From assembly GCA_945911015.1 (NCBI GenBank), contig CAMDZW010000014.1:16028-80027 (forward strand): a stretch of 64,000 nucleotides of DNA, given 5' to 3'. Position numbers and translations under genes: made by a program. Of this stretch, positions 1,862 through 52,105 are shown in pieces (the first letter of the stretch is position 1; the number at the start of each line of letters is the position of its first letter). Source of the DNA: an uncultured Propionibacteriaceae bacterium (GTDB taxonomy: Bacteria > Actinomycetota > Actinomycetes > Propionibacteriales > Propionibacteriaceae). The notes below the pieces were generated by a model that made no database searches, was not told the origin of the DNA, and saw only the letters and a program-made list of their open reading frames with translations.

Positions 1862-3427
1862 ATGGGTGAAGACGTGATCGACACATTGGTGTCGGTCGGG
1901 ATCAAGATCCTTGTGGCTCTGGTCATTCTGGCCGTCACATGGCTGGTCGCCATTGGGGTTCGCAAGGGGATCTCGGCCCTGGTCAAACGGGTGAAATTCC
2001 TGCAACGCACGGGGAACGACGGACAGTCACTCGGTGAATCCGTCGGAAAGATCGCTGCACTGCTCGTGTGGTTGTTGGGCCTTGTCGCAGTCCTGCAATG
2101 GTTCAACCTCGGCGAGGTCGTCGCCCCGATCCAGACGATGCTCAACAGCGTCCTGGCCTTCCTGCCAAATCTGCTCGGCGCCATCTTGGTGTTCATTGTC
2201 GGCGCACTGCTGGCCAAGGTTGCCCGTCAGCTGATTGAAGCCGCGCTCCGCGCACTTCCGCTCGACAAGTGGCTCGGCAAGGCCGGCGCCGCGACGAATC
2301 CTGACCGCGAAAGCCACCTGCCCGGCACCGCTCCTTCACCTGCGGCCCCGCCCGCACCAGCCGCTCCGGCCACGCCGAACCCGGCGCCCTTCCCGGGCCA
2401 GGCCGGTCAGCCCGGTCAGTTCCAGGGTCAGGCCCCGCAGGGTCAGGGCCAGCAGGGTCAGGGCCAGCAGGGTCAGGGCCAGCAGGGTCAGGGCCAGCAG
2501 GGTCCCGGCCAGTTCCAGCCGCAGGGTCATCCGGGTCAGTTCCAGGGCCAGCCGCAGTTCCAGGGCCAGGCACCTCAGCAGCCCACTGCACCGGCCCCGC
2601 AGGGAACCGCAGCTCGCATTGCCCATCTGGTCGGCACCGTCGTGTACGCCCTGATCCTCATCGTGGTGACCATCGCCGCACTGCAGGTGCTCGGCATCTC
2701 CGCGATCTCCGCTCCGGCCAGCGCCATGCTGACCAGCATCTTCGACGCTGTGCCGCGGATCGTGGCTGCGCTGCTGTTGGTCGGTCTTGGGGTGCTGATT
2801 GCGAAGTTCCTCGGCGATCTGGTCCGCCAGTTGCTCGAGGGCATCGGCGCTGACAAGGCGCTCGCCTCGGCCCAGGTCCTTCCCGACGGCACGAAGGCCT
2901 CGACCATCGTGGCCCGCGTCGTGCAAGTTGCCGTGGTGCTGTTCTTCGCCGTGATGGCCGCGCAGACACTCGCCTTCCCGCAGATCACCGACATTCTGCA
3001 GCAGATCCTCACCCTCGGTGGTCAGGTGCTGTTCGGTGGCGTGATCATCGCCGCCGGGTTCTTCCTCGGTGGCCTGATCCAGCGTCTGATGGGCAAGGGC
3101 ATGGCGACGACCGTGATCAAGTACGTCACGATCGTGCTGTTCGCCGCGATGGGTCTGAAGGCGATGGGCATCGCCGACTCGATCATCGAGCTCGGCTTCG
3201 GTGCAGTCGTGGTTGGCGGCGCACTCGCCGCAGCCCTGGCCTTCGGCCTGGGTGGCCGGGACGCTGCTTCCCGTACGTTGTCCAAGATCGAGCACAAGGC
3301 CGAAGAGGCGGAGAAGGAGAAGGAGAAGGAAGAGGCTGCCGCCGCAGCCGCACCAGCTCCTGCTGCTGCTCCTCCGGCACCCCAGGCGCCTGAGGCTCCG
3401 GGCCCTGAGGATGGTCCGACAGTCTGA
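1862..3427 (+). CDS. Mechanosensitive-channel-type (conserved TM helix repeat) membrane protein with Q/G-rich linker
   Basis: GAGGAGGT RBS before ATG 1862; repeated TM segments typical of TM_helix/MscS-related proteins; low-complexity linker and Ala/Pro/Glu C-tail. Confidence 0.75.
   Translation: MGEDVIDTLVSVGIKILVALVILAVTWLVAIGVRKGISALVKRVKFLQRTGNDGQSLGESVGKIAALLVWLLGLVAVLQWFNLGEVVAPIQTMLNSVLAFLPNLLGAILVFIVGALLAKVARQLIEAALRALPLDKWLGKAGAATNPDRESHLPGTAPSPAAPPAPAAPATPNPAPFPGQAGQPGQFQGQAPQGQGQQGQGQQGQGQQGQGQQGPGQFQPQGHPGQFQGQPQFQGQAPQQPTAPAPQGTAARIAHLVGTVVYALILIVVTIAALQVLGISAISAPASAMLTSIFDAVPRIVAALLLVGLGVLIAKFLGDLVRQLLEGIGADKALASAQVLPDGTKASTIVARVVQVAVVLFFAVMAAQTLAFPQITDILQQILTLGGQVLFGGVIIAAGFFLGGLIQRLMGKGMATTVIKYVTIVLFAAMGLKAMGIADSIIELGFGAVVVGGALAAALAFGLGGRDAASRTLSKIEHKAEEAEKEKEKEEAAAAAAPAPAAAPPAPQAPEAPGPEDGPTV
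2441..2500 (+). repeat. 4 x 15-bp perfect tandem repeat (GGTCAGGGCCAGCAG), encoding a QGQGQ-type repeat
   Basis: Direct reading of sequence within the TM_helix-type CDS. Confidence 0.95.
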
Positions 3428-3437
3428 GCCAATCCTC

Positions 3438-3472
3438 AACGACCCGCATCTCCTCGTGAGATGCGGGTCGTT
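3438..3472. terminator. Perfect 15-bp stem, 5-nt loop hairpin
   Basis: AACGACCCGCATCTC-CTCGT-GAGATGCGGGTCGTT, between convergent genes. Confidence 0.85.
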
Positions 3473-3477
3473 TGGGT

Positions 3478-3744
3478 TCAGGTGTCAGTTCCGTCGACCT
3501 CTGTGCGCCTGAGCTGCCATTCTGCCCAGACATTCTCCGGATCGAGGTCGGCATATCCGCGGCTTGCAGCCATGGCGTCACCCATCGACCGAGGCATCAT
3601 CATGGCCACGGCATTATCACGGATCTCGACGACCTCGTCCTCGGTCAGGGGCGCGCCCCTCTCCTGCTCACTCGCCGTCAGGATCGCGATCAGCGGCGGG
3701 ATGAAGGTCGGGACAAGATCCTCGTCACTCTGCTCAGTTGCCAT
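3478..3744 (-). CDS. Hypothetical small protein
   Basis: MATEQSDEDLVPTFIPPLIAILTASEQE...; the 250-aa track ORF trimmed to this Met. Confidence 0.6.
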   Translation of the reverse strand: MATEQSDEDLVPTFIPPLIAILTASEQERGAPLTEDEVVEIRDNAVAMMMPRSMGDAMAASRGYADLDPENVWAEWQLRRTEVDGTDT

Positions 3745-3850
3745 GAAACCCATGCTGCCAGACGCTCCCGCGGAGGCCAGCACGTACAGATGCTGCCCAG
3801 CATGCCTGCGGCGGTGGGCTGCCCCACACCGGAAGGGGCTGGTCCGCGCC

Positions 3851-3894
3851 GGGATGTGCTGGCCTTGGCAGCGGGATGTGCTGGCCTTGGCAGC
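3851..3894. repeat. 2 x 22-bp perfect tandem repeat in intergenic DNA
   Basis: GGGATGTGCTGGCCTTGGCAGC twice head to tail. Confidence 0.95.
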
Positions 3895-3946
3895 GGGGAG
3901 GCCGGATGAGTTGCAGAAGCAGCCTGGACGCGCAGGTGGTGCGGCC

Positions 3947-4234
3947 TCAGTCGTGAGGGACGACCAGGTCGGCCCACTCCGGATGGGTCTCGATGTAGCG
4001 CCGAACGTAGGAGCACGACGGCAGCACCTGGAGACCTTCGTCCCGGGTGGCGGCGAGCCCTGCCCGTACGACGATGGCGGCAAGTCCGCGTCCGCCGTAC
4101 TCGGGATTGATCTCGGTGTGGTGGAAGTTCCGCACCCGGCGGCGGTCATCGAATTCGGCGAAGCCGACCACGACGCCATCGACGCTGATCTCGAAGCGGT
4201 CAGGGTCAGTCCTGCGCTCGACAGTTTCACTCAT
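3947..4234 (-). CDS. GNAT-family N-acetyltransferase (YidJ-like, small)
   Basis: MSETVERRTDPDRFEISVDGVVVGFAEFDDRR...NPEYGGRGLAAIVVRAGL; NPEYGGRGLA acetyl-CoA loop. Confidence 0.8.
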   Translation of the reverse strand: MSETVERRTDPDRFEISVDGVVVGFAEFDDRRRVRNFHHTEINPEYGGRGLAAIVVRAGLAATRDEGLQVLPSCSYVRRYIETHPEWADLVVPHD

Positions 4235-4263
4235 GGCGATAGCCTGCCACCGGAGGAGGCGTG

Positions 4264-5178
4264 ATGACTGCACCACAGATCCTGACGGCGCGGGATGTCC
4301 CGCTGGGCGGTGTCCGAGCGATCACCGTACGACGCACGCTGCCGCACCGGGAGCGGTCCCGCATCGGCGCCTGGTGTTTCGTCGATCACTACGGGCCGCA
4401 CGACGTGACGACCGGTCACGGCATGGATGTTGCGCCCCATCCGCACACCGGTCTGCAGACCCTGTCGTGGCTGTTCGACGGCATGATCGAGCACCGCGAC
4501 AGTGGTGGGGTGTTGGCCACCGTACGACCCGGCGAGGCGAACCTGATGACCGCCGGTCGCGGCGTCTGCCACTCCGAGGTGACCATGCCCGAGACGACCG
4601 TCCTGCACGGCGTCCAGCTGTGGATTGCGCTGCCGGACCACGCTCGCAACACCACCCGCGCCTTCGAGCATCATGTGAGCAGCGCGGTTCGGCTGCCCGA
4701 CGATGCCGGTACCGCCCGAGTGTTCGCCGGCAGCCTGGCCGGAGTGGGCAGTTCACCGATCACCCTGCACACCCCGCTGGTCGGCGCCCAGCTCGACCTC
4801 GTCCCGTACGGGACAGTGTCACTCGAGTTGGACGAGACCTTCGAATACGGCATCCTGCTCGACCGGGGCGCAGTGTCGCTCGGTGACACCTCACTCGGCC
4901 ACGGCGACCTGGCCTGTTTCGACCCGGGCCAGCACAGCCTGGAGCTGGCGGCGGGGGCCGAGGGCGCACGGGTGGTGCTGCTGGGAGGTGCCCCCTTCGA
5001 CGAGCCGATCATCATGTGGTGGAACTTCGTCGGCCGCACCCACGACGAGATCGTTGCCCACCGCGAGGCATGGCAGAACGAGAGCACACGATTTGGCCGG
5101 GTCGACGGCTACGTCGGCACACCTCAGCGGTTGCTGGCGCCACCGATGCCCGAAGTACGCCTGCGGCCGCGAACCTAG
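4264..5178 (+). CDS. Pirin family protein
   Basis: RRTLPHRERSRIGAWCFVDHYGPH, VAPHPHTGLQTLSWLFDG, HRDSGG motifs of pirins. Confidence 0.9.
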   Translation: MTAPQILTARDVPLGGVRAITVRRTLPHRERSRIGAWCFVDHYGPHDVTTGHGMDVAPHPHTGLQTLSWLFDGMIEHRDSGGVLATVRPGEANLMTAGRGVCHSEVTMPETTVLHGVQLWIALPDHARNTTRAFEHHVSSAVRLPDDAGTARVFAGSLAGVGSSPITLHTPLVGAQLDLVPYGTVSLELDETFEYGILLDRGAVSLGDTSLGHGDLACFDPGQHSLELAAGAEGARVVLLGGAPFDEPIIMWWNFVGRTHDEIVAHREAWQNESTRFGRVDGYVGTPQRLLAPPMPEVRLRPRT

Positions 5179-5214
5179 CAGTCACGCCGCTACCAACGTC
5201 CTGGCCGGGTCCAT

Positions 5215-5658
5215 CTAGATTCGGTGGGGGCCGGGACCTTCTTCGGCGAGGGTGTCCTCAGGGTTGAGCAGCGAGCAGGACTTCATCGACAGGCACCCAC
5301 AGCCGATGCACCCGTTGAGTTCACGTTCGAGCCGTTCGATCTGGAGTCGTCGCTGTTCCAGGGTGGCCCGCCAGGTGGTGGAGACCTTGCGCCAGTCGGA
5401 CGTGCTGGGGCGCCGATCGTGCGGCAGGGTCCGGAAGGCTTCCTCGACATCGGTCAGCGGGATGCCCAACCGCTTGGCCACCACGATGAGGGAGATCCGC
5501 CGCACCATGTGTCGGGCATAGCGCCGCTGATTGCCGAGGGTCCGTTCGGCCGAGATCAGACCGAGCTGTTCGTAGTAGTGGAGCGCGGACTTCGCGACTC
5601 CGGTCCGGGCGGCCACCTCGCCGATGCTGAGCGAGTCGTCGGGATCGATGTCATGCAC
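5215..5658 (-). CDS. soxR: Redox-sensitive MerR-family regulator SoxR
   Basis: MerR HTH IGEVAARTGVAKSALHYYEQLGLI plus [2Fe-2S] motif CIGCGCLSMKSC (CX2CXCX5C). Confidence 0.93.
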   Translation of the reverse strand: MHDIDPDDSLSIGEVAARTGVAKSALHYYEQLGLISAERTLGNQRRYARHMVRRISLIVVAKRLGIPLTDVEEAFRTLPHDRRPSTSDWRKVSTTWRATLEQRRLQIERLERELNGCIGCGCLSMKSCSLLNPEDTLAEEGPGPHRI

Positions 5659-5688
5659 CCCGCCATCCTCGCCGACCGTCGATAAAAT

Positions 5689-5704
5689 CTCAACTCTACT
5701 TGAG
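5689..5704. promoter_or_regulatory. Putative SoxR box
   Basis: CTCAACTCTACTTGAG: CTCAA-N6-TTGAG as in the known SoxR operator core CTCAAG(T/C)..ACTTGAG, in the soxR upstream region. Confidence 0.7.
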
Positions 5705-5744
5705 TTTCAAGCTTCTCATTGACGACGTGCCGTAGGTTGACCCC

Positions 5745-6947
5745 ATGCGCTTTGACGTGGCGGCCGGGATGGGCCTGTTCCTGGCCAGCGTGATGAGCAT
5801 CGGCCTGACCACGGTGATCAATCCGGCCATCCCTCCGGCTGACCGTCTCGGTTGGGCGCTGCTGTTCAGCGCCCTGATGACCGTGCCGTTGATCTGGCGA
5901 CGACGGTTCCCGGTCGTTGTGGCGATCATTGTCTGCACCTCGTACTTCGTGTCGATGACAGTGGAGGCGCCGGAGTGGTTCGTCAGCCAGATCGCGCTGT
6001 TCGTGGCGATCTACACCATCGGCGCGGTCAGCACCGACCGTCGCAGGGCCACCCTCGCCCGGGCCCTGATCATCGTCGGCATGGGGGTGTGGTTGCTGGT
6101 CAACACGTTTCGGGCCGCGGACCAGGGTGGCGAACCGGCAGTCGTGATGACGCCCCATGTTGCGTCGGTCCTATTGACCTGGTTGATGAATGCGGCCTAC
6201 TTCGGCGGAGCGTTCGTGCTGGGTGACATGGCATGGCGGGCCACGCGGCAGCGGGAGCTGCTGCTGGAACGTACGCATGAGCTCGAGACTGAGCGGGAGA
6301 TCACGGCCACCCAGGCCGTCACCCTGGATCGGGTCCGGATCGCTCGTGAGCTCCACGATGTCGTTGCCCACCACGTTTCGGCGATGGGAGTGCAGGCCGG
6401 TGCTGCCCGCATCATGGTGGATCGCGATCCTGACGCCGCCCGCAACGCCCTGATGGTGATCGAGGAGTCGAGTCGGACGGCGATCGCCGAACTCCACCAC
6501 CTCCTGGACACCTTGCGCACTGACCCGGAGGCCGCGGCCACGGATGCGCCGTCCACCCTCACCCTCGATCGGCTCGACCATCTGGCACAGACCATGACGG
6601 CCTCGGGGACGCCGACCACCCTCGTGGTCATCGGTGAGGCCGAGCCGGTGCCGGACCTGGTCCAGGTCAATCTCTATCGGATCGCCCAGGAAGCGTTGAC
6701 CAATGTGCGGCGCCATGCTGGTCCGGATGCGACCGTCGAGATGCGCCTACGTCACGACCCCGGCTTCGTCGAACTGGAAGTCACCAACACCGGCCGGCTG
6801 GTGCTGACCGTCCAACCAGGACTGGGACAACTCGGGATGAGGGAGCGGATGACAGCATCGGGTGGCCGCCTCGAGGCACGTCCACTGCGCGACGGCGGAT
6901 TCCTCGTCCGGGCGACGGTGCCGCTCACCAGTCGGGTGCCAGCATGA
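5745..6947 (+). CDS. NarL-type sensor histidine kinase
   Basis: N-terminal TM segments; RIARELHDVVAHHVSAMGVQAGAAR (HisKA_3) and HATPase GLGQLGMRERM. Confidence 0.9.
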   Translation: MRFDVAAGMGLFLASVMSIGLTTVINPAIPPADRLGWALLFSALMTVPLIWRRRFPVVVAIIVCTSYFVSMTVEAPEWFVSQIALFVAIYTIGAVSTDRRRATLARALIIVGMGVWLLVNTFRAADQGGEPAVVMTPHVASVLLTWLMNAAYFGGAFVLGDMAWRATRQRELLLERTHELETEREITATQAVTLDRVRIARELHDVVAHHVSAMGVQAGAARIMVDRDPDAARNALMVIEESSRTAIAELHHLLDTLRTDPEAAATDAPSTLTLDRLDHLAQTMTASGTPTTLVVIGEAEPVPDLVQVNLYRIAQEALTNVRRHAGPDATVEMRLRHDPGFVELEVTNTGRLVLTVQPGLGQLGMRERMTASGGRLEARPLRDGGFLVRATVPLTSRVPA

Positions 6948-7573
6948 CACGCGTGTTGCTGGTCGACGACCACGCCGCCGTACGAGCTGGGTTCGCCATG
7001 ATCCTCGGTGCCGCAGGTTTCGAGATCGTCGGTCAGGCCGCGGACGGGCGGGAGGCGGTGACGCTGGCCGCCTCGCTGAATCCGGACGTGATCCTGATGG
7101 ACGTCCAGATGCCGGAGCTCGACGGGATCAGTGCCACCCAGGAGATCCTTGCTGGTGCAGGGAATCCGGCGATCGTGGTCGTGACGACCTTCGATGATGA
7201 CGACCATCTGTTCGCTGCGCTCGATGCCGGTGCGAGTGGGTTCCTGCTCAAGACAGCTGGGCCGGAGGACCTGATCCATGCCGTACGAGTGGTGGCCGCC
7301 GGCGACGCCCTGTTGGCGCCAGCTGTGACCCGTCGGGTGATCGCACGCCATTCCGGGACAGCCTTGGCCGCGCCCGTCCCGGTAGACCTGACCGACCGGG
7401 AACGTGATGTGCTCCATCTGCTCGCCCAGGCGATGAGCAATGCCGAGATCGCGGCAGAGCTCGTCATTGGCGAGGCGACGGTGAAGACCCACGTCTCGAA
7501 CGTCCTGCTGAAGCTCGGCGCCCGGGACCGGGTTGCAGCCGCTGTCTGGGCTCATCGCCACGGGATGGGCTGA
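6944..7573 (+). CDS. LuxR/NarL-type response regulator
   Basis: RVLLVDDHAAVRAGF, VILMDVQMPELDGI receiver; LTDRERDVLHLLAQAMSNAEIA HTH; overlaps kinase stop. Confidence 0.93.
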   Translation: MTRVLLVDDHAAVRAGFAMILGAAGFEIVGQAADGREAVTLAASLNPDVILMDVQMPELDGISATQEILAGAGNPAIVVVTTFDDDDHLFAALDAGASGFLLKTAGPEDLIHAVRVVAAGDALLAPAVTRRVIARHSGTALAAPVPVDLTDRERDVLHLLAQAMSNAEIAAELVIGEATVKTHVSNVLLKLGARDRVAAAVWAHRHGMG

Positions 7574-7677
7574 GGGTCTCTCCCCCGTACGACGGAGGCG
7601 CAGGTTCCACCTGTGGCCGGATGTGTCGGGCGCGGCCCGTCGCTACGGTTGAGGCAGTCGAACAGAACGGGGTGCCC

Positions 7678-8556
7678 ATGCTGGAGCTGCGAGGGATCAC
7701 GAAGCGGTACGGGGAGCGACTTGCCCTGGATGACGTGAACTTCTCCGTACGAGACGGTCGATTGACCGGTTTCGTGGGAGGCAACGGCGCCGGGAAGACC
7801 ACCACGATGAGGATCGTGCTCGGGCTGTTGTCCCGAGACGGCGGCGAGGTCCTGATGGACGGCAAGCCACTCACCACCCAGGCCCGACAGGGTTTCGGCT
7901 ACATGCCTGAAGAGCGCGGCCTCTATCCGAAGATGAAGGTTCTCGAGCAGATCGTCTACCTGGCGCGGCTCCACGGCTTCTCCAAGGAAGACGCTGCCGC
8001 GAAGGCAACCCCCCTGCTGGAGGATCTCGGTCTCGGCGAACGACTCACCGACACCGTCGAGTCTTTGTCGTTGGGCAACCAGCAACGCGCCCAGATCGCG
8101 GCCGCGCTGGTGCACGATCCGGCGGTGCTGATCCTCGATGAGCCCTTCTCCGGTTTGGATCCGATCGCCGTGGAGACGGTGGTCTCGGTGTTGCAGCAGC
8201 GCGCCGCAGCAGGAGCGTCGGTGCTGTTCTCCTCCCACCAGCTCGATGTCGTCGAACGACTCTGTGACGACCTGGTGATCATCGCCGGCGGCACCGTCCG
8301 GGCCGCCGGATCCCGCGACGAGCTGCGCTCGGAGTACTCCTCCAACCGTTGGGAGCTGGTCGGTTCCGATGCCGGCTGGTTGCGCGGCCAACCCGGGGTG
8401 AGCGTGATCGAGTTCGAAGGCGGACGCGCGGTCTTCGAGGCCGACGCCGCATCGGCCCAGCAGGTGTTGCGCACCGCGGTGGATCGCGGCGCCGTCACCA
8501 GCTTCACTCCCCAGCGGCCTTCTCTGGCCCAGATCTTCACCGAGGTGATCCAGTGA
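7678..8556 (+). CDS. ABC transporter ATP-binding protein (ABC-2 exporter)
   Basis: GGNGAGKTTTMR Walker A, LSLGNQQRAQIAAAL signature, LILDEPFSGLDP Walker B. Confidence 0.93.
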   Translation: MLELRGITKRYGERLALDDVNFSVRDGRLTGFVGGNGAGKTTTMRIVLGLLSRDGGEVLMDGKPLTTQARQGFGYMPEERGLYPKMKVLEQIVYLARLHGFSKEDAAAKATPLLEDLGLGERLTDTVESLSLGNQQRAQIAAALVHDPAVLILDEPFSGLDPIAVETVVSVLQQRAAAGASVLFSSHQLDVVERLCDDLVIIAGGTVRAAGSRDELRSEYSSNRWELVGSDAGWLRGQPGVSVIEFEGGRAVFEADAASAQQVLRTAVDRGAVTSFTPQRPSLAQIFTEVIQ

Positions 8557-9641
8557 ACACCCAGATCTCTGCCGTCCAAGGAACCTGGTTGGTTGCCGAG
8601 CGTGAGCTGGTCTCCAAACTCCGCAGCAAGTCCTTCATCATCACCACCGTGATCCTGGTGGTGCTGGCGCTCGCCGCTGTCATCTTTGCCGGCGTCCGCA
8701 GCGCCACTGCGGAGCCGACGCCGGTGGCGGTGACTCCCGCTGCCGCGACTGCACTGGAAGGTCAGGGCGACCTGAATCTGGTGGCTGCGGCAGATCGCGA
8801 AGTTGCCGTCGCCCTCGTACGCAACGGTGAGGTCGATGCCGCGGTGGTCGAGGACGAAAGCTCACCCACCGGCTTCACGATCATCGCCGACACCTCGGTG
8901 CCCTCGGAGCTGATCGGGCTGCTCTCGGTGTCGCCGACGGTCGAGTTGCTCGATCCGGAGGCTGCGGCCCAGTCGGGGCTGAGATACTTGTTGGGCTTCG
9001 GATTCGGCATCATCTTCATGATGGCCGCGATCACCTTCGGCAGCCCGATCACCCAGAGCGTGGTGGAGGAAAAGTCGACCCGGGTGGTCGAGATCCTGAT
9101 CTCCACCATCCCGGCCCGGGTGCTGCTCGCCGGCAAGGTTCTGGGCAACACGATCCTGGCGGTCGGACAGATCCTTGTCCTGATTGCGGTCGTCACGGTC
9201 GGGTTGATCGTCACCGACCAGAGCGCGATCCTGAGCGGTCTCGGCGCGCCGATGGTCTGGTTCGCGGTGTTCTTCCTGTTCGGGTTCATCCTGCTGGCGG
9301 CCATGTTCGCCGCGGCCGGAGCACTCGTCTCGCGTCAGGAGGACACCGGTGCGACGATGACTCCGATCATCTATCTGGTGATGATCCCGTACTTTGTCGC
9401 GATCGTGCTCGGTGACAACCCGATCGTGATGACGATCATGTCGTACGTGCCGTTCTCGGCCGCCGTGGCGATGCCGATCCGGGTCTTCTTCGGCGACGCG
9501 TTCTGGTGGGAGCCGCTCCTGGCCCTGGTCGTGCTGCTGTTGGCCTGCCTGGCCGTGATCGGTGTCGGCGCAAAGATCTACCAGAACTCGCTGTTGAAGA
9601 TGGGTGCTCGGGTCAAGCTCCGTGAAGCCTTGAAGGGCTGA
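8553..9641 (+). CDS. ABC-2 type permease (NatB-like)
   Basis: VAERELVSKLRSKSFIITT; multiple TM; FGSPITQSVVEEKSTRVVEILIS. Confidence 0.9.
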   Translation: MNTQISAVQGTWLVAERELVSKLRSKSFIITTVILVVLALAAVIFAGVRSATAEPTPVAVTPAAATALEGQGDLNLVAAADREVAVALVRNGEVDAAVVEDESSPTGFTIIADTSVPSELIGLLSVSPTVELLDPEAAAQSGLRYLLGFGFGIIFMMAAITFGSPITQSVVEEKSTRVVEILISTIPARVLLAGKVLGNTILAVGQILVLIAVVTVGLIVTDQSAILSGLGAPMVWFAVFFLFGFILLAAMFAAAGALVSRQEDTGATMTPIIYLVMIPYFVAIVLGDNPIVMTIMSYVPFSAAVAMPIRVFFGDAFWWEPLLALVVLLLACLAVIGVGAKIYQNSLLKMGARVKLREALKG

Positions 9642-46277: not shown

Positions 46278-48602
46278 TCAGCGGGTCGCGACCACCTTCA
46301 CCTGACGGCGGCGGCTCATCCCCCAGATGGTGGCGCCGACCCCGGCTGCGAGCCAGACGACCATCATGGCGATGTTGCCACCGAGGCCCGGGATGGGCCC
46401 GGTGATGCCGGTGAAGGCGTCGATGGCCGGGGTTGTCGGCAGGACCGGACGGACAGCGCCGAGTGCGGCCGGCAGGGCCGTCACCAGGGCCGCACCGATC
46501 GCGAGGATGCCGACCGCGACCGCGATGAACTGCCCGGTCCGACCGAGCAGGGTCGACAGGCCGACCGTCACCGCGGCAAAGGACAGACCGGCCAGGGCAC
46601 CGATCCCGAGCAGGGCCATGACCTCACCGGCTGACCGATCGGTCAGCCCGGCGATGACTGCGCCGAAGACGACACCCTGGACTGCTGCGATCCCGGCGAC
46701 CGGGGCGAAGGCCCGCAACGCCAGACCCAGGGTCGACGCTGAGCTGCGCCAGGCCCGCTGCGCCACCCCGCCGAGCAGCCAGGCCCCGAGCAGGGCGCCC
46801 AGCCACAGGGCAATACCGGCAATAGCGGACAGGCTGGCCGGATCGGAGAACAGCCGCGGGCCGGAATCACTGCCGGTCAGGACCGGGCGGGTGATCACCG
46901 TGGTCAACCGTTCCCGTTCGGTGTCGGAATAGCTGGGCACCTCGCTGGCACCGGACTTGAGCCCGTCGGACAATTGCTGCGCGCCGTTGTCGAGCTCGCG
47001 GGCACCGTCGGCAAGCTCGCCGACACCGTCCGACAGGGCGATGACGCCGTCGTTGAGCTGACCGACACCATTGACGTACTCGGTGATGCCGTTCTTGAGC
47101 TGCGGGCCGTTGTCGGCCAGCTGCCCGGCACCGTCGGACAACTGCTTGATGCCGTCAGCCAACTGTGGGAACCCAGCCGACATCTGCTGGATGCCGTCGG
47201 CGAGCTGATTCACCCCACCCGACAGCTGCGAGGCGCCGCCGCTGAGCTCCTTGGTCCCGTCAGCGAGCTGGCGGGCACCCTGCTTGAGGCCGGGCTGGCC
47301 CTTGGTGCCGTTGATGCCAGCCGAGAGCTGCTTGGCGCCGGTGGCGGCCTGGTCGAGACCACCGCCGAGGCCGGACACCCCGTCGGAGAGGTCCTTGGCT
47401 CCGGTCGTGAGGGCACCGCTGTTGTCAAGAAGTGGCTTCAATCCCTTGAGCGCAGCATCAATACCGGCATCGAAGCCCAGCTTGAAACCCTCGCACATCT
47501 CGCCCTCGGGAAGCTGAGCCATCTCACAGGTCATTGAGCCCTTGGCGTCCTCCAACCCGTCGTAGTAGGACTGCAATCCCGTCATGAAGGCCTCGACGCC
47601 GGCGGCGTTGGCCGAGGCGCCCTCGGCGAGCTGTTTCGCGCCATCAGCGGCCTGGTCGAGTTGATCGGCGAACTGCTTGGCTCCGGCCCCGGTCTGGTCG
47701 ACCCCGTCGGCCAGGGCATCGGCGCCGTCGGCCAGTTCCTTCGCGCCGCCGGCCAGTTCCTTGGCGCCATCGGCGGTCTGGCCGGCTCCGTCGGAGAGCT
47801 GCTTGACCTGGCCGGGCATCTGCGCAATCTGCGCATTGAGCTGGCGCAGCGCCTCGGCCAAGGTCACAGTCCCGTCGACATATTCCGACACCCCGTCGGC
47901 GAGTGTGGAACCGTTGTCATCCAGCTGCTTCACGCCATCGGCAAGTTCCTTGACACCGTCGTTGAGGCCGTCGACCCCGTCGGCCAGCTCTCCGGTGCCG
48001 TCGGCCAGCTGTGAGGACGCGTCGGAGATCGTCTGGAATTGCTCGCCCATGGTGGAGAAGCCGACGAAGACGTTGTCCAGGAAGGTCTCGGTCAATTCGG
48101 CATTCATCGTGTCGATGGCAGCTTGGACGACCGTACGGGCAAAGGTCGGGTCGACCGAGCTGGCGCGGGGTGAGACCTCGATGTTGACCAGCGCCTGCTC
48201 GGCTTCGGCTGCGTCGGCGGTCGAGGTGGCCGCGGTGGAGAAGTTCTCCGGGATCGTGACCACGGCGGCGTACTTGCCCGACTTCAACCCCTCGGCAGCA
48301 TCCTCGACATTGGTGACAGCCCAGTCGTAGTTGGTGATCTCGCCGGCGGCGCCGGGTGCCCGGTCCAAGCTGGCGAGCTTGCCGGCGAGCTGGCGACCCA
48401 GTGGGACGTACTGCCCGTCAAGAGTGACCGGTTCGTCGAGATTGACGATGGCGGCCTTGATCTGGTCGTTGCGCTGGTCGGCCTGCCACACAGAGGTGAC
48501 CAGGGTCGCCACCAGCAGCAGTGGCAGCAGGACGACCCCGGCAATGGTCAACCAGGAACGTGGACTCTTCTGGGCAAACAGCGGGTTCTTCTGGGCAGAC
48601 AT
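46278..48602 (-). CDS. YhgE/Pip-domain membrane protein with LxxG heptad repeats
   Basis: N-terminal TM then IKAAIVNLDEPVTLDGQYVPLGRQLAGKL; long LADGVDGLNDGVKELADG repeats; 5 C-terminal TM helices. Confidence 0.9.
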   Translation of the reverse strand: MSAQKNPLFAQKSPRSWLTIAGVVLLPLLLVATLVTSVWQADQRNDQIKAAIVNLDEPVTLDGQYVPLGRQLAGKLASLDRAPGAAGEITNYDWAVTNVEDAAEGLKSGKYAAVVTIPENFSTAATSTADAAEAEQALVNIEVSPRASSVDPTFARTVVQAAIDTMNAELTETFLDNVFVGFSTMGEQFQTISDASSQLADGTGELADGVDGLNDGVKELADGVKQLDDNGSTLADGVSEYVDGTVTLAEALRQLNAQIAQMPGQVKQLSDGAGQTADGAKELAGGAKELADGADALADGVDQTGAGAKQFADQLDQAADGAKQLAEGASANAAGVEAFMTGLQSYYDGLEDAKGSMTCEMAQLPEGEMCEGFKLGFDAGIDAALKGLKPLLDNSGALTTGAKDLSDGVSGLGGGLDQAATGAKQLSAGINGTKGQPGLKQGARQLADGTKELSGGASQLSGGVNQLADGIQQMSAGFPQLADGIKQLSDGAGQLADNGPQLKNGITEYVNGVGQLNDGVIALSDGVGELADGARELDNGAQQLSDGLKSGASEVPSYSDTERERLTTVITRPVLTGSDSGPRLFSDPASLSAIAGIALWLGALLGAWLLGGVAQRAWRSSASTLGLALRAFAPVAGIAAVQGVVFGAVIAGLTDRSAGEVMALLGIGALAGLSFAAVTVGLSTLLGRTGQFIAVAVGILAIGAALVTALPAALGAVRPVLPTTPAIDAFTGITGPIPGLGGNIAMMVVWLAAGVGATIWGMSRRRQVKVVATR

Positions 48603-48620: not shown

Positions 48621-51317
48621 TCAGACGAGGGCGGCAGTCGGTACGGGGGAAGGCTCGGACGCGGCGGGAGCCATCGGCACTGCGGCAAGGCCGTCGATCG
48701 GCCGTGCAGTCGAGACCAGGACCGCTGATCCGCGCTCCCGCAGGGAGGTGATCGCCGCCATGAGCTGGTCGTTCGGGCACTGGTCGGCGCGGTCGATGGC
48801 GACCACCAGCGGGGCCTCCCCGGCAGCAAGGGCGGCGAGTTCGCTCAATCCGTCGTCGCTCACATCGACATACCGGGTGCGCCGCCGTACCACCCCCGAC
48901 TGTTGGGGCAGCACCAGATCAGCGACCTTGAGCTTGCCGTCGGTGATCGAGGTCCGACCGGTCACCGCCAAGAGCGCGGCGGTCCGCAGTTCCTCGTCGC
49001 CGCCGACCAGGGCAGTCGCCTGGCCGGCCTCGACGAACAGACCGTGAGCCGGCAGCACCGTGGTCGCTCCGACGGCGACACCTTCGGCAGCAATCCCGTA
49101 CGGCTGACCGGCGCGTGGCCATTCGGCCAGGGCGAGCCGATGCTGCAGACCCTCGCCCTCGACATCGAAGGACGGCAGCAGTCGGTCGAGCCACTTCGGC
49201 AACCACCAGGCCTTCTCGCCGAGCAGTTGCAGCACGGCGGGCACCAGGGTCATCCGGACGATGAAGGCGTCGACGAAGATGCCCACCGACAGGCCGAGCG
49301 CGATCGATTTCAGGATCGGATCACCCTCGGGGACGAAGGCGGCGAACACCGCGAACATGATCAGACCCGCGGCCAGCACGACCCGTGACGAGGCCACGAA
49401 GCCGGTGCGGATGGAGTCGCGGGCGCTGTGCCCGTGGACATGTTCCTCCCGGATCCGAGAGACCAGGAAGACCTCATAGTCCATCGCCAGACCGAACAGG
49501 ATGCCCATCAGGATGATCGGCAGGAAGGAGATCACCGGTCCGGTCTGGTCGAGGCCAAGCAGGGAGGCGCCGACCCCATGTTCGAAGACCAGTGCCACCA
49601 CCCCGAAGGCGGCGAGCACGCTGAACAGGTAGCCGATGGCGGCCTTGACCGGGACCCAGATCGAGCGGAAGACCATCGTCAACAACACCAGCGACAGTCC
49701 GACGACCACAATGGCGAACGGGATGAGTGCGTCTCCGAGTTGTTCGGACACATCGATCTGGACGGCAGTGACGCCGGTGACGTACGGGGTGACGCCGTAC
49801 CGGTCCTCGATCTCGGATCGCAGATCACGCAGTCGGTGGACGAGCTCGGCAGTCTCGGGATCGTCCGGGCCGGTGGTCGGCACGATTTGGACGATGCCGG
49901 TGTCAATGCTGGGGTTCGGGGTCGCCAGGGGGACCTCGGCGACACCGGGGACCTCCTCGACCAGTTCCTTGATGCCGTCCATGACGCCCAACGGGTCATC
50001 GACCGAGACGATGTCGACCGCCATGATCAAGGGACCGTTGTGGCCAGGACCAAAGTGTTCGCTGACCAGGTCGTAGTTGACCCGGGTGGGGGAGCCGGCC
50101 GGATCGTCGCCGGCGTCGGGGAGGGCGAGCTTGAGGTCCATGGCCGGGAGGGCGAGTGCACCGAGACCGATCACCACGATGGCCACGGTCAGGGCCGGGA
50201 TCTTGGTGCTGGCGGCGACCCACTTCTCGGCCCAGGTGCGCTTCTGCTTCTTCGGCGCGGCTTCGGCGGCGTCCGCGGCGGCCTTGGCCTTCTTCGGCTT
50301 GGGCCGGAGTCGTTCGCCCATCAGACCGAGGAAGGCTGGCAGTGCGGTGATCGCGATGAGGACCGCGATCAGCACTGCGCCGGCAGCGGCAATGCCCATG
50401 GTGGTGAGGAAGGGGATCCCCGCCACCCCCAGGCCGATCAGGGCGATCATCACCGTGATGCCGGCAAAGACGACGGCCGAGCCGGAGGTGGCGACAGCCC
50501 GCGCAGCTGACTCCTCGGGCTCCATGCCTTGGCCGAGTTGGTCGCGATGGCGGGAGATGATGAACAACGCGTAGTCGATGCCGACTGCGAGTCCGAGCAT
50601 CAGCGCCAACATCATGGTGGTGGAGTTGATCACGACAAAGGCGGTGCCGATGACCACCGCGAGGATCGAGATGCCCACGCCCCACAGTGCAGTGATCAGC
50701 GGCAGCCCGGCCGCACGGAACGAGCCAAGGGTCACCCACAGCACGACCAACGCGACGACCACACCGATGAAGTCGACCCAGCCGATTCCGACGTTGACCA
50801 CCTGGTAGGCATTGCCGCCGGCCGACGCCTCGGATCCGGGGACCGCAGCGGCGAGTTGGTCGGCGAAGGTCGAGATGGCGTCGAGGGTTTCCTGTGGCAC
50901 GACGCCGACCCCACTGTCGAACTGGATCTGCACCAGTGCGGCGCGCTGGTTGTCGCTGATTGATCCGTCGACCATGTCGTCGTAGGGGGACATGATCGTG
51001 TCGACCCCGTCGAGAGACTCGACCTGGTCGATGAAGTGGTCGACCGCGTCCTTCATGGCCGGCCCTTCGACGTCACCGCCCTCGGGCGCGACCACGATGA
51101 TCTGGGCGGAGGCGCCGCTGACCTCGGAGAAGGTGTTGTTCAACATGTCGAGGCCCTGCTGGGACTCGGTGCCCGGCAGCGAGAACTCGTCCTCGAAGGA
51201 CTTCGAGAAGAGTGCGGCAGCACCTCCGGCCAGCAGCAGGATCAGCAACCAGGTGATCAGCACGGTGCCACGGCGCCGGAATGCGAGGCGGCCGAGGCCG
51301 TACAGGACCGAAGACAT
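48621..51317 (-). CDS. MMPL/RND-superfamily transporter with C-terminal ABC-ATPase-like degenerate domain
   Basis: Two MMPL TM blocks (LALMLGLAVGIDYALFIISRHRDQL; LMGILFGLAMDYEVFLVSRIREE) plus ~170-aa soluble tail. Confidence 0.9.
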   Translation of the reverse strand: MSSVLYGLGRLAFRRRGTVLITWLLILLLAGGAAALFSKSFEDEFSLPGTESQQGLDMLNNTFSEVSGASAQIIVVAPEGGDVEGPAMKDAVDHFIDQVESLDGVDTIMSPYDDMVDGSISDNQRAALVQIQFDSGVGVVPQETLDAISTFADQLAAAVPGSEASAGGNAYQVVNVGIGWVDFIGVVVALVVLWVTLGSFRAAGLPLITALWGVGISILAVVIGTAFVVINSTTMMLALMLGLAVGIDYALFIISRHRDQLGQGMEPEESAARAVATSGSAVVFAGITVMIALIGLGVAGIPFLTTMGIAAAGAVLIAVLIAITALPAFLGLMGERLRPKPKKAKAAADAAEAAPKKQKRTWAEKWVAASTKIPALTVAIVVIGLGALALPAMDLKLALPDAGDDPAGSPTRVNYDLVSEHFGPGHNGPLIMAVDIVSVDDPLGVMDGIKELVEEVPGVAEVPLATPNPSIDTGIVQIVPTTGPDDPETAELVHRLRDLRSEIEDRYGVTPYVTGVTAVQIDVSEQLGDALIPFAIVVVGLSLVLLTMVFRSIWVPVKAAIGYLFSVLAAFGVVALVFEHGVGASLLGLDQTGPVISFLPIILMGILFGLAMDYEVFLVSRIREEHVHGHSARDSIRTGFVASSRVVLAAGLIMFAVFAAFVPEGDPILKSIALGLSVGIFVDAFIVRMTLVPAVLQLLGEKAWWLPKWLDRLLPSFDVEGEGLQHRLALAEWPRAGQPYGIAAEGVAVGATTVLPAHGLFVEAGQATALVGGDEELRTAALLAVTGRTSITDGKLKVADLVLPQQSGVVRRRTRYVDVSDDGLSELAALAAGEAPLVVAIDRADQCPNDQLMAAITSLRERGSAVLVSTARPIDGLAAVPMAPAASEPSPVPTAALV

Positions 51318-51381
51318 GAGGGTGTGGCCTCCCGAAGGGGTGTACGAATCGACGATCGGCCGATACATGGACGCATGAAGC

Positions 51382-51414
51382 ATACGCGCGTGCATCCACA
51401 ATTCATACGTGTAT
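51382..51414. promoter_or_regulatory. Candidate paired TetR operators in the divergent tetR-MMPL promoter
   Basis: ATACGCGCGTGCAT and ATACGTGTAT, about 21 bp apart. Confidence 0.5.
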
Positions 51415-51475
51415 CGTGTCCTGCGCAACGTGAGACCGGCCACAGCTGGCGCGGGTCGAGATGGAGGATCAAGCA

Positions 51476-52105
51476 GTGAGCACGACGGGGGCGACATCAC
51501 CGGTGAGTCGGCGACGGGCCGAGACGCGGGATCGTCTGTTGGTCGCCGCCATTGACGTGTTTGCCCGGATTGGTGTCGACCAGGCCCGGGTCGAGGACAT
51601 CAGTGAGCAGGCCGGCTACACCCGCGGTGCCTTCTACTCCAACTTTGCGGACAAGGCCGACCTGATCGTCGCGCTGCTGCAGCGCCAGGGCGAGTTGGCC
51701 AGTCAGGTCGTGCGCACATCCATCGGCCAGGTGCTCGCCGGTCCGCGCCCGGACGGCTTCGAGGCGCTGGTCAATGCCGCCCTCGATGCCTTCGCCGACA
51801 ACATCCCAACCGACAACTGGCTCCTGGCCGAGATGAGCCTGCGGTTCGCGGCCATGCGTGACCCCGAGCTCGGCAAGCACCTCGAAGCTTTTGAGCGACA
51901 ACAGCGCGCCACCTTGGTCGCCACCTTGGAAGCGGGTCTGGACGAGATCGGGATGCGTTCGCTGCTGCCGATCGAACACCTGGTCACCGTGGCGATGGCC
52001 GTCCACAGCGATGCCATGCTCCGTGAGCGGGTGGGGGTGGCCTCCGTACAAGAACGTCAGGTGTTGGTCAGCATCCTCGAACGTTGCCTGGAGCCCATCG
52101 ACTGA
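51476..52105 (+). CDS. TetR-family transcriptional regulator
   Basis: RRRAETRDRLLVAAIDVFARIGVDQARVEDISEQAGYTRGAFYSNFADKADL. Confidence 0.95.
   Translation: MSTTGATSPVSRRRAETRDRLLVAAIDVFARIGVDQARVEDISEQAGYTRGAFYSNFADKADLIVALLQRQGELASQVVRTSIGQVLAGPRPDGFEALVNAALDAFADNIPTDNWLLAEMSLRFAAMRDPELGKHLEAFERQQRATLVATLEAGLDEIGMRSLLPIEHLVTVAMAVHSDAMLRERVGVASVQERQVLVSILERCLEPID

Follow-up and report, generated by a model that had tools for sequence, protein, structure and literature searches.

Introduction

RND pumps and ABC transporters are regarded as two distinct classes, each with its own source of energy. Degenerate ABC sites, which have kept the fold and lost the catalytic residues, are found in CFTR NBD1 and TAP1, where they pair with an active or partner nucleotide-binding domain (NBD) inside an ABC transporter. 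Moreover, a survey of Streptomyces transporters reported that some relatives of Pip are putative ABC-2 superfamily transporters (PMC3924187). The open-access literature we searched contains no description of an RND/MMPL pump that bears an ABC NBD, be it fused or dead; such absence is not proof.

Here we analyze a stretch of 64,000 nucleotides (termed the window) from an uncultured Propionibacteriaceae bacterium, in which an MMPL/RND transporter carries a degenerate ABC NBD at its C-terminus and is followed by a gene for a YhgE/Pip-family membrane protein. The component families are all known, and their MMPL-NBD combination is, as far as the open-access literature goes, probably undescribed.

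Results

The MMPL part of the fused protein appears intact

The fused gene occupies positions 48621-51317 of the minus strand and encodes an MMPL/RND transporter with a C-terminal pseudo-NBD (898 aa when translation starts at the ATG at 51317), as assigned by Pfam, AlphaFold and Foldseek. Its open frame extends further, from 48621 to 51500 (959 aa, starting with a GTG at 51500). The ATG is the more probable start, because the GTG overlaps a divergent TetR-family regulator gene (51461-52105, plus strand, identified by NCBIfam TetR-type matches). The Pfam MMPL family matches the protein in two stretches (E 1.3e-86), so that the domain is present twice. The AlphaFold model of the full-length protein is confident (pLDDT 89.5, pTM 0.86) and has the RND fold, its top match in Foldseek being MmpL3 (E 2.4e-32). 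Furthermore, the two Asp-Tyr pairs of the proton relay, D248-Y249 and D613-Y614, one in each half, are invariant in 38 homologues. From these pairs and the MmpL3-like model we infer that the MMPL part is intact and equipped to work by proton flow.

A divergent TetR relative is found upstream of the fused gene in 70 of 77 related loci. The divergent intergenic region of the window (51318-51460, no strand assigned) contains an inverted repeat (51361-51376/51401-51416) and a palindrome (51434-51457) between the TetR and MMPL starts. It is a candidate TetR operator, a possibility that rests on the inverted repeats only.

The tail is an ABC nucleotide-binding domain

An earlier note, made from sequence alone, had claimed that the MMPL protein continues into an apparently dead ABC-ATPase-like domain. 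The residues it quoted are confirmed and lie in a single open frame on the minus strand. However, the initial ~30 residues of its tail stretch (PKWLDRLLPSFDVEGE...) belong to the linker between the MMPL part and the NBD (PKWLDRLLPSFDVEGEGLQHRLALAEWPRAGQP, 49101-49199, minus strand). The motif of this linker is shared with the ends of tail-less MMPLs, where it gives short matches to positions 1-30 of the tail profile, and plasmid MMPLs align to the window protein only as far as residues ~729-741. The domain proper corresponds to ~48672-49100.

This folded C-terminal domain of ~145 residues is a degenerate ABC NBD without the helical subdomain (48672-49100, minus strand), as revealed by a family profile searched against the PDB, AlphaFold and Foldseek. 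Used alone as a query, the window tail yields only chance-level matches in Pfam, NCBIfam and the PDB (phmmer against the PDB: none), and Pfam finds no significant match in the final 190 residues of the window protein. A profile built from 29 tails (A1), in contrast, retrieves ABC NBDs as its top matches in the PDB, with EcfA1 at E 1e-6. The alignment consists of two collinear stretches, profile positions 47-113 and 121-177, between which ~60 residues of the solved NBD are skipped, corresponding to the helical subdomain and the signature motif.

The AlphaFold model of the window tail, computed from an alignment with 79 relatives, is confident (pLDDT 90.4, pTM 0.84), and the top 50 Foldseek matches in the PDB are all ABC NBDs (best E 2e-7, probability 1.00). 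The TM-scores are moderate (~0.55), which is expected because the linker was included and the subdomain is missing. The final ~20 residues are disordered in both the tail and the full-length model, and the domain borders rest on one predicted structure. Thus, the profile, the predicted fold and the intermediate relatives described below show that the tail has the ABC core fold and is an ABC NBD by ancestry.

Could the tail be another P-loop NTPase, of the STAND or AAA type? Some tail members do have weak Pfam matches to nSTAND_NTPase5, AAA_22 and AAA_16. However, the family matched by most members is ABC_tran, which is also the strongest match in the less degenerate relatives; the top matches in the PDB profile search and in Foldseek are ABC NBDs rather than STAND or AAA proteins; and the strands ahead of the P-loop follow the ABC NBD order. 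We therefore reject this identity, which is all but excluded.

Catalytic motifs are missing from the window copy

Aligned with relatives that keep G-x4-GK[ST], the Walker A position of the window reads GGDEELRT (48981-49004, minus strand): the last Gly of the motif is replaced by Leu and the Lys by Arg, and GxxGxGK[ST] is not matched. At the Walker B position, LVVAIDRAD (48783-48809, minus strand, by alignment), the Asp is retained (tail residue 136), and the position of the catalytic Glu after it is occupied by Arg. At the H-loop position in VLVSTARP (48705-48707, minus strand, read after alignment), Ala replaces His. The helical subdomain with the LSGGQ signature is absent, ~60 residues being deleted. 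The loss of these residues is shown. That the window NBD is catalytically dead is likely, and is inferred from the lost motifs in the absence of data on ATP hydrolysis.

The earlier note had placed Walker A, Walker B with Arg for Glu, and the missing H-loop His by eye. All three placements are correct, and it missed the ~60-residue deletion between the two halves of the NBD. Its claim of a dead ABC domain finds support in the profile, the fold and the intermediate relatives. Of the outcomes it had named as refuting (no ABC-like fold, a disordered tail or a frameshift read-through) none occurred, and of the checks it had proposed, the structure prediction and search of the tail gave the fold reported above and the survey for homologues with the P-loop lysine gave the relatives reported below.

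In the A3 alignment, the columns of tail residues 81, 82, 88, 98, 105 and 139 are near-invariant while the catalytic ones vary. They comprise a Gly-Arg pair that follows the P-loop helix, then Gly88, Pro98 and Arg105, and an Asp located three residues past the Walker B Asp. Judged by their conservation, they are a possible docking surface.

Relatives retain intermediate forms of the domain

The fused relatives were chosen by conserved motifs at the MMPL end and only the best 80 were kept, so the frequencies among fused forms are biased. Of 115 fused relatives, 12 retain GK[ST] and three have GR[ST], whereas the P-loop is lost in 99. A fourth apparent GR[ST], in L152, was a false pattern match and was discarded. 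When mapped onto a tree built from the MMPL part, the Lys state requires at least six changes. Since regain is unlikely, repeated loss is preferred, and it is likely that the ancestor had a P-loop that was lost several times.

Four relatives (L048, L049, L149 and L150) have a longer, almost complete fused NBD with GxxGxGKT and the helical subdomain, in which LSRLE-like residues stand at the LSGGQ position and Asp at that of the catalytic Glu; L048 matches Pfam ABC_tran at 3.4e-16. Eight others (L015, L026, L066, L101, L112, L123, L127 and L135) still have a P-loop and lack the helical subdomain, and the window copy has neither. The relatives thus suggest, as a likely path, a complete fused NBD with GSGKT, then a form with a P-loop and no helical subdomain, and then the form of the window.

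Two members of the fused group are divergent, L047 (G042:C1:1146000-1158000) and L151. In L047 the P-loop is gone and the helical part retained, so the order of losses varies by lineage. In another locus (L046, positions 3362-8989, corresponding to G012:C2 ~858361-863988) the MMPL, a degenerate NBD and YhgE are encoded in one unbroken frame of 1876 codons; L020 has the same gene. The end of the NBD in L046 appears frameshifted, and the triple fusion may be natural or a sequencing error.

The tail is under purifying selection

The tail is present in 48 of 98 related genomes and lies in almost every case within an open frame of ~890-1200 aa. In 12 pairs of near relatives, dN/dS is 0.17-0.52 in the tail and 0.08-0.23 in the MMPL part; the window paired with its closest relative gives 0.40 and 0.18, respectively. 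These ratios are rough, as some pairs have partly saturated synonymous sites. They nevertheless show that the tail is under purifying selection, with a constraint that is looser than on the pump yet clear. This selection, the confident fold and the recurrence of the tail within frames of MMPL length rule out chance or a frameshift read-through as its origin.

It could still be argued that two genes fused by accident, that the tail is a decaying leftover which does little or nothing, and that one promoter is what keeps the genes together. In favor of this reading, all catalytic motifs are gone from the window tail, its dN/dS exceeds that of the MMPL part and its last ~20 residues are disordered. 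However, dN/dS is well under 1 in all 12 pairs, the core of the tail folds confidently in the 898-aa model, the Gly-Arg, Gly and Pro columns are invariant across 80 sequences while the catalytic columns vary, and the fusion is retained across Propionibacteriaceae, Microbacteriaceae, Pseudonocardiaceae and other families. We therefore consider a decaying remnant very unlikely.

The fused domain is linked to YhgE

The neighboring gene (46278-48602, minus strand) begins 18 bp past the stop of the NBD and encodes a YhgE/Pip-family ABC-2-type membrane protein with xxxLxxG repeats, identified by TIGR03061, TIGR03057 and Pfam. It passes the cut-off of the N-terminal TIGR03061 model (103.9 bits; cut-off 96.15), has 15 stretches matching TIGR03057 and stays under the cut-off of the C-terminal TIGR03062 model (44.9 bits; cut-off 102.2). 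The ABC-2 membrane domain is recognized by Pfam ABC2_membrane_3 (38.8 bits; cut-off 31.6), a match that reaches E 2.5e-25 in the YhgE of L040.

YhgE was located by profile; the longest downstream frame is sometimes antisense, such frames staying open in GC-rich DNA. YhgE starts between -9 and +86 bp from the stop of the fused gene in each of the 79 named loci for which enough sequence was available. We also searched 247 genomes of the class for YhgE and examined the region upstream of the 80 best-scoring matches, so that the linkage is not judged from chosen loci only. Upstream of these 80 actinobacterial YhgE genes we found a separate NBD in 62 cases, an MMPL-NBD fusion in 16 and neither in two; an MMPL without an NBD was found upstream of none of the 80. 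In a tree of YhgE (118 rows), a single branch with a support of 97 divides the fused from the separate arrangement. The linkage and the single split are shown, and one origin of the fusion, which fits this tree, is likely.

The separate NBDs are of the same family as the tail. The best non-MMPL matches of the tail profile are separate NBD genes of ~230-390 codons, and those that were fetched lie directly 5' of YhgE. When placed in a tree alongside 27 ABC NBDs from the genome of the window, the fused and separate YhgE-linked NBDs group on one side (SH-aLRT 99), although this was a quick tree with long branches. It is because this NBD family otherwise occurs as a separate gene directly ahead of YhgE that we assign the tail to YhgE. 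The genome of the window has both arrangements: the fusion lies on C14, and a second YhgE on C5 (L203, G000:C5:104700-110161) is preceded by a separate NBD (G000:C5:105200-106317) with GPSGSGRS at Walker A and VVIDDTD at Walker B.

A first alternative is that the tail regulates the MMPL alone, for example as a sensor of a nucleotide or other ligand, and that YhgE is merely co-transcribed. The intact P-loop of some lineages would suit ligand sensing, and the MMPL part has all that is needed for work by proton flow. However, the NBD on the MMPL is never apart from YhgE, neither in the 79 named loci nor in the 16 surveyed fusions, and the same NBD accompanies YhgE without an MMPL in 62 of 80 cases. 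Regulation of the MMPL alone thus seems unlikely. The earlier note had suggested that the tail could be regulatory or a platform on which a partner such as YhgE docks. The platform has strong genomic support, whereas docking itself remains inferred, and a role in regulation alone is still possible.

According to a second alternative, YhgE is an ordinary ABC-2 exporter that the fused and separate NBDs continue to power, either as ATP-binding switches or as slow ATPases. The MMPL would then be an independent second pump and the window copy a local loss, perhaps offset by a separate NBD elsewhere in the genome. Consistent with this, 12 of the 115 fused NBDs have GK[ST], four keep the helical subdomain (L048, L049, L149 and L150), and the window's genome does have the separate NBD on C5. 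However, in the 62 separate NBDs (among L158-L237) the column of the Walker A Lys holds Arg in 45 and Lys in one, that of the catalytic Glu holds Asp in 35, Asn in eight and Glu in none, and LSGGQ was not found in those upstream of the surveyed YhgE genes. Moreover, loss of the P-loop is common in the fused forms (99 of 115). The last ~15 separate NBDs match more distantly, and their columns may be misaligned. We regard still-active NBDs as improbable. Judging from the motif columns, weak or absent hydrolysis might be a trait of the whole YhgE-linked NBD family and not of the fused branch alone.

In Saccharopolyspora hirsuta, 24 h on cholesterol raised the expression of the adjacent YhgE (F1721_04135) 3.82-fold and of the MMPL (F1721_04140) 3.33-fold (PMC9782250). 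The sampled members of Saccharopolyspora carry the MMPL-NBD fusion. The induction may hint at joint regulation of YhgE and the MMPL; that the MMPL of this strain has the tail is inferred from the genus.

Discussion

The explanation we lean towards, by a modest margin, is that the tail is the (pseudo-)NBD of YhgE itself, which moved onto the MMPL and now tethers the proton-driven pump to YhgE. In this scenario, an NBD associated with YhgE would have joined the C-terminus of an MMPL (RND) pump in an ancestral fusion. The signature motif and the catalytic Glu would have decayed first, then the helical subdomain and, in most lineages, the P-loop, with the surface and the fold of the NBD being what survives. 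The pseudo-NBD would lie in the cytoplasm beneath the membrane domain of the MMPL and dock onto the cytoplasmic face of YhgE in the manner of an NBD. MMPL and YhgE would thus form one complex that draws its energy from the proton-driven MMPL, and the long extracellular heptad-repeat region of YhgE may, by analogy only, serve as an extracellular stalk or path. Physical docking, the supply of energy by the MMPL and export as the function are all inferred.

Several points speak against such a tether. The helical subdomain, deleted here, usually contributes to the NBD surface in contact with the membrane domain, so that an altered mode of docking would be needed. The 12 of 115 relatives that keep the P-loop Lys indicate that nucleotide binding still matters in some lineages. 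Finally, evolution is faster and constraint looser in the tail than in the MMPL part (dN/dS 0.40 versus 0.18 for the window pair). A bolder version of the tether, in which an RND pump took over an ABC-2-type membrane protein with the dead ABC engine as coupler, and protons instead of ATP drive the pair, is possible but less likely than not.

Retained in many actinobacterial families and always beside YhgE, the fusion gives the widespread and obscure YhgE/Pip family a concrete partner and a role that can be tested, and the fused series is a stepwise record of an ATPase becoming a structural part. If the tether is true, it would suggest that many actinobacteria have a single machine built from two kinds of transporter, which a dead engine part joins.

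How does the locus compare to known systems? With the RND pumps of the MmpL/HAE2 group (MmpL3, MmpL4 and MmpL5) it shares the membrane and extracellular domains, the Asp-Tyr pairs, the fold and the divergent TetR regulator. In contrast to them, the cytoplasmic tail of the window group has an ABC-type fold, whereas the closest outside MMPLs end at the linker. The window YhgE resembles the YhgE/Pip (phage infection protein) family, TCDB 9.B.74, which is related to EsaA of type VII secretion, in TIGR03061, the xxxLxxG repeats and the ABC-2-type membrane part. It differs in that it is tied to an MMPL via a shared pseudo-NBD and in that TIGR03062 is under its cut-off. The separate NBD genes ahead of actinobacterial YhgE, generally annotated as ABC ATP-binding proteins, share with the fused group the NBD family, the place before YhgE, the lack of LSGGQ and Asp for the catalytic Glu. 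Unlike the fused forms, they stand alone with ~230-390 aa (open frames, a few being longer), have the helical subdomain and mostly carry Arg in Walker A. As in CFTR NBD1 and TAP1, both of which are among the A1 profile matches, the ABC fold is present without the catalytic residues; unlike in these proteins, however, the NBD of the window is borne by an RND pump.
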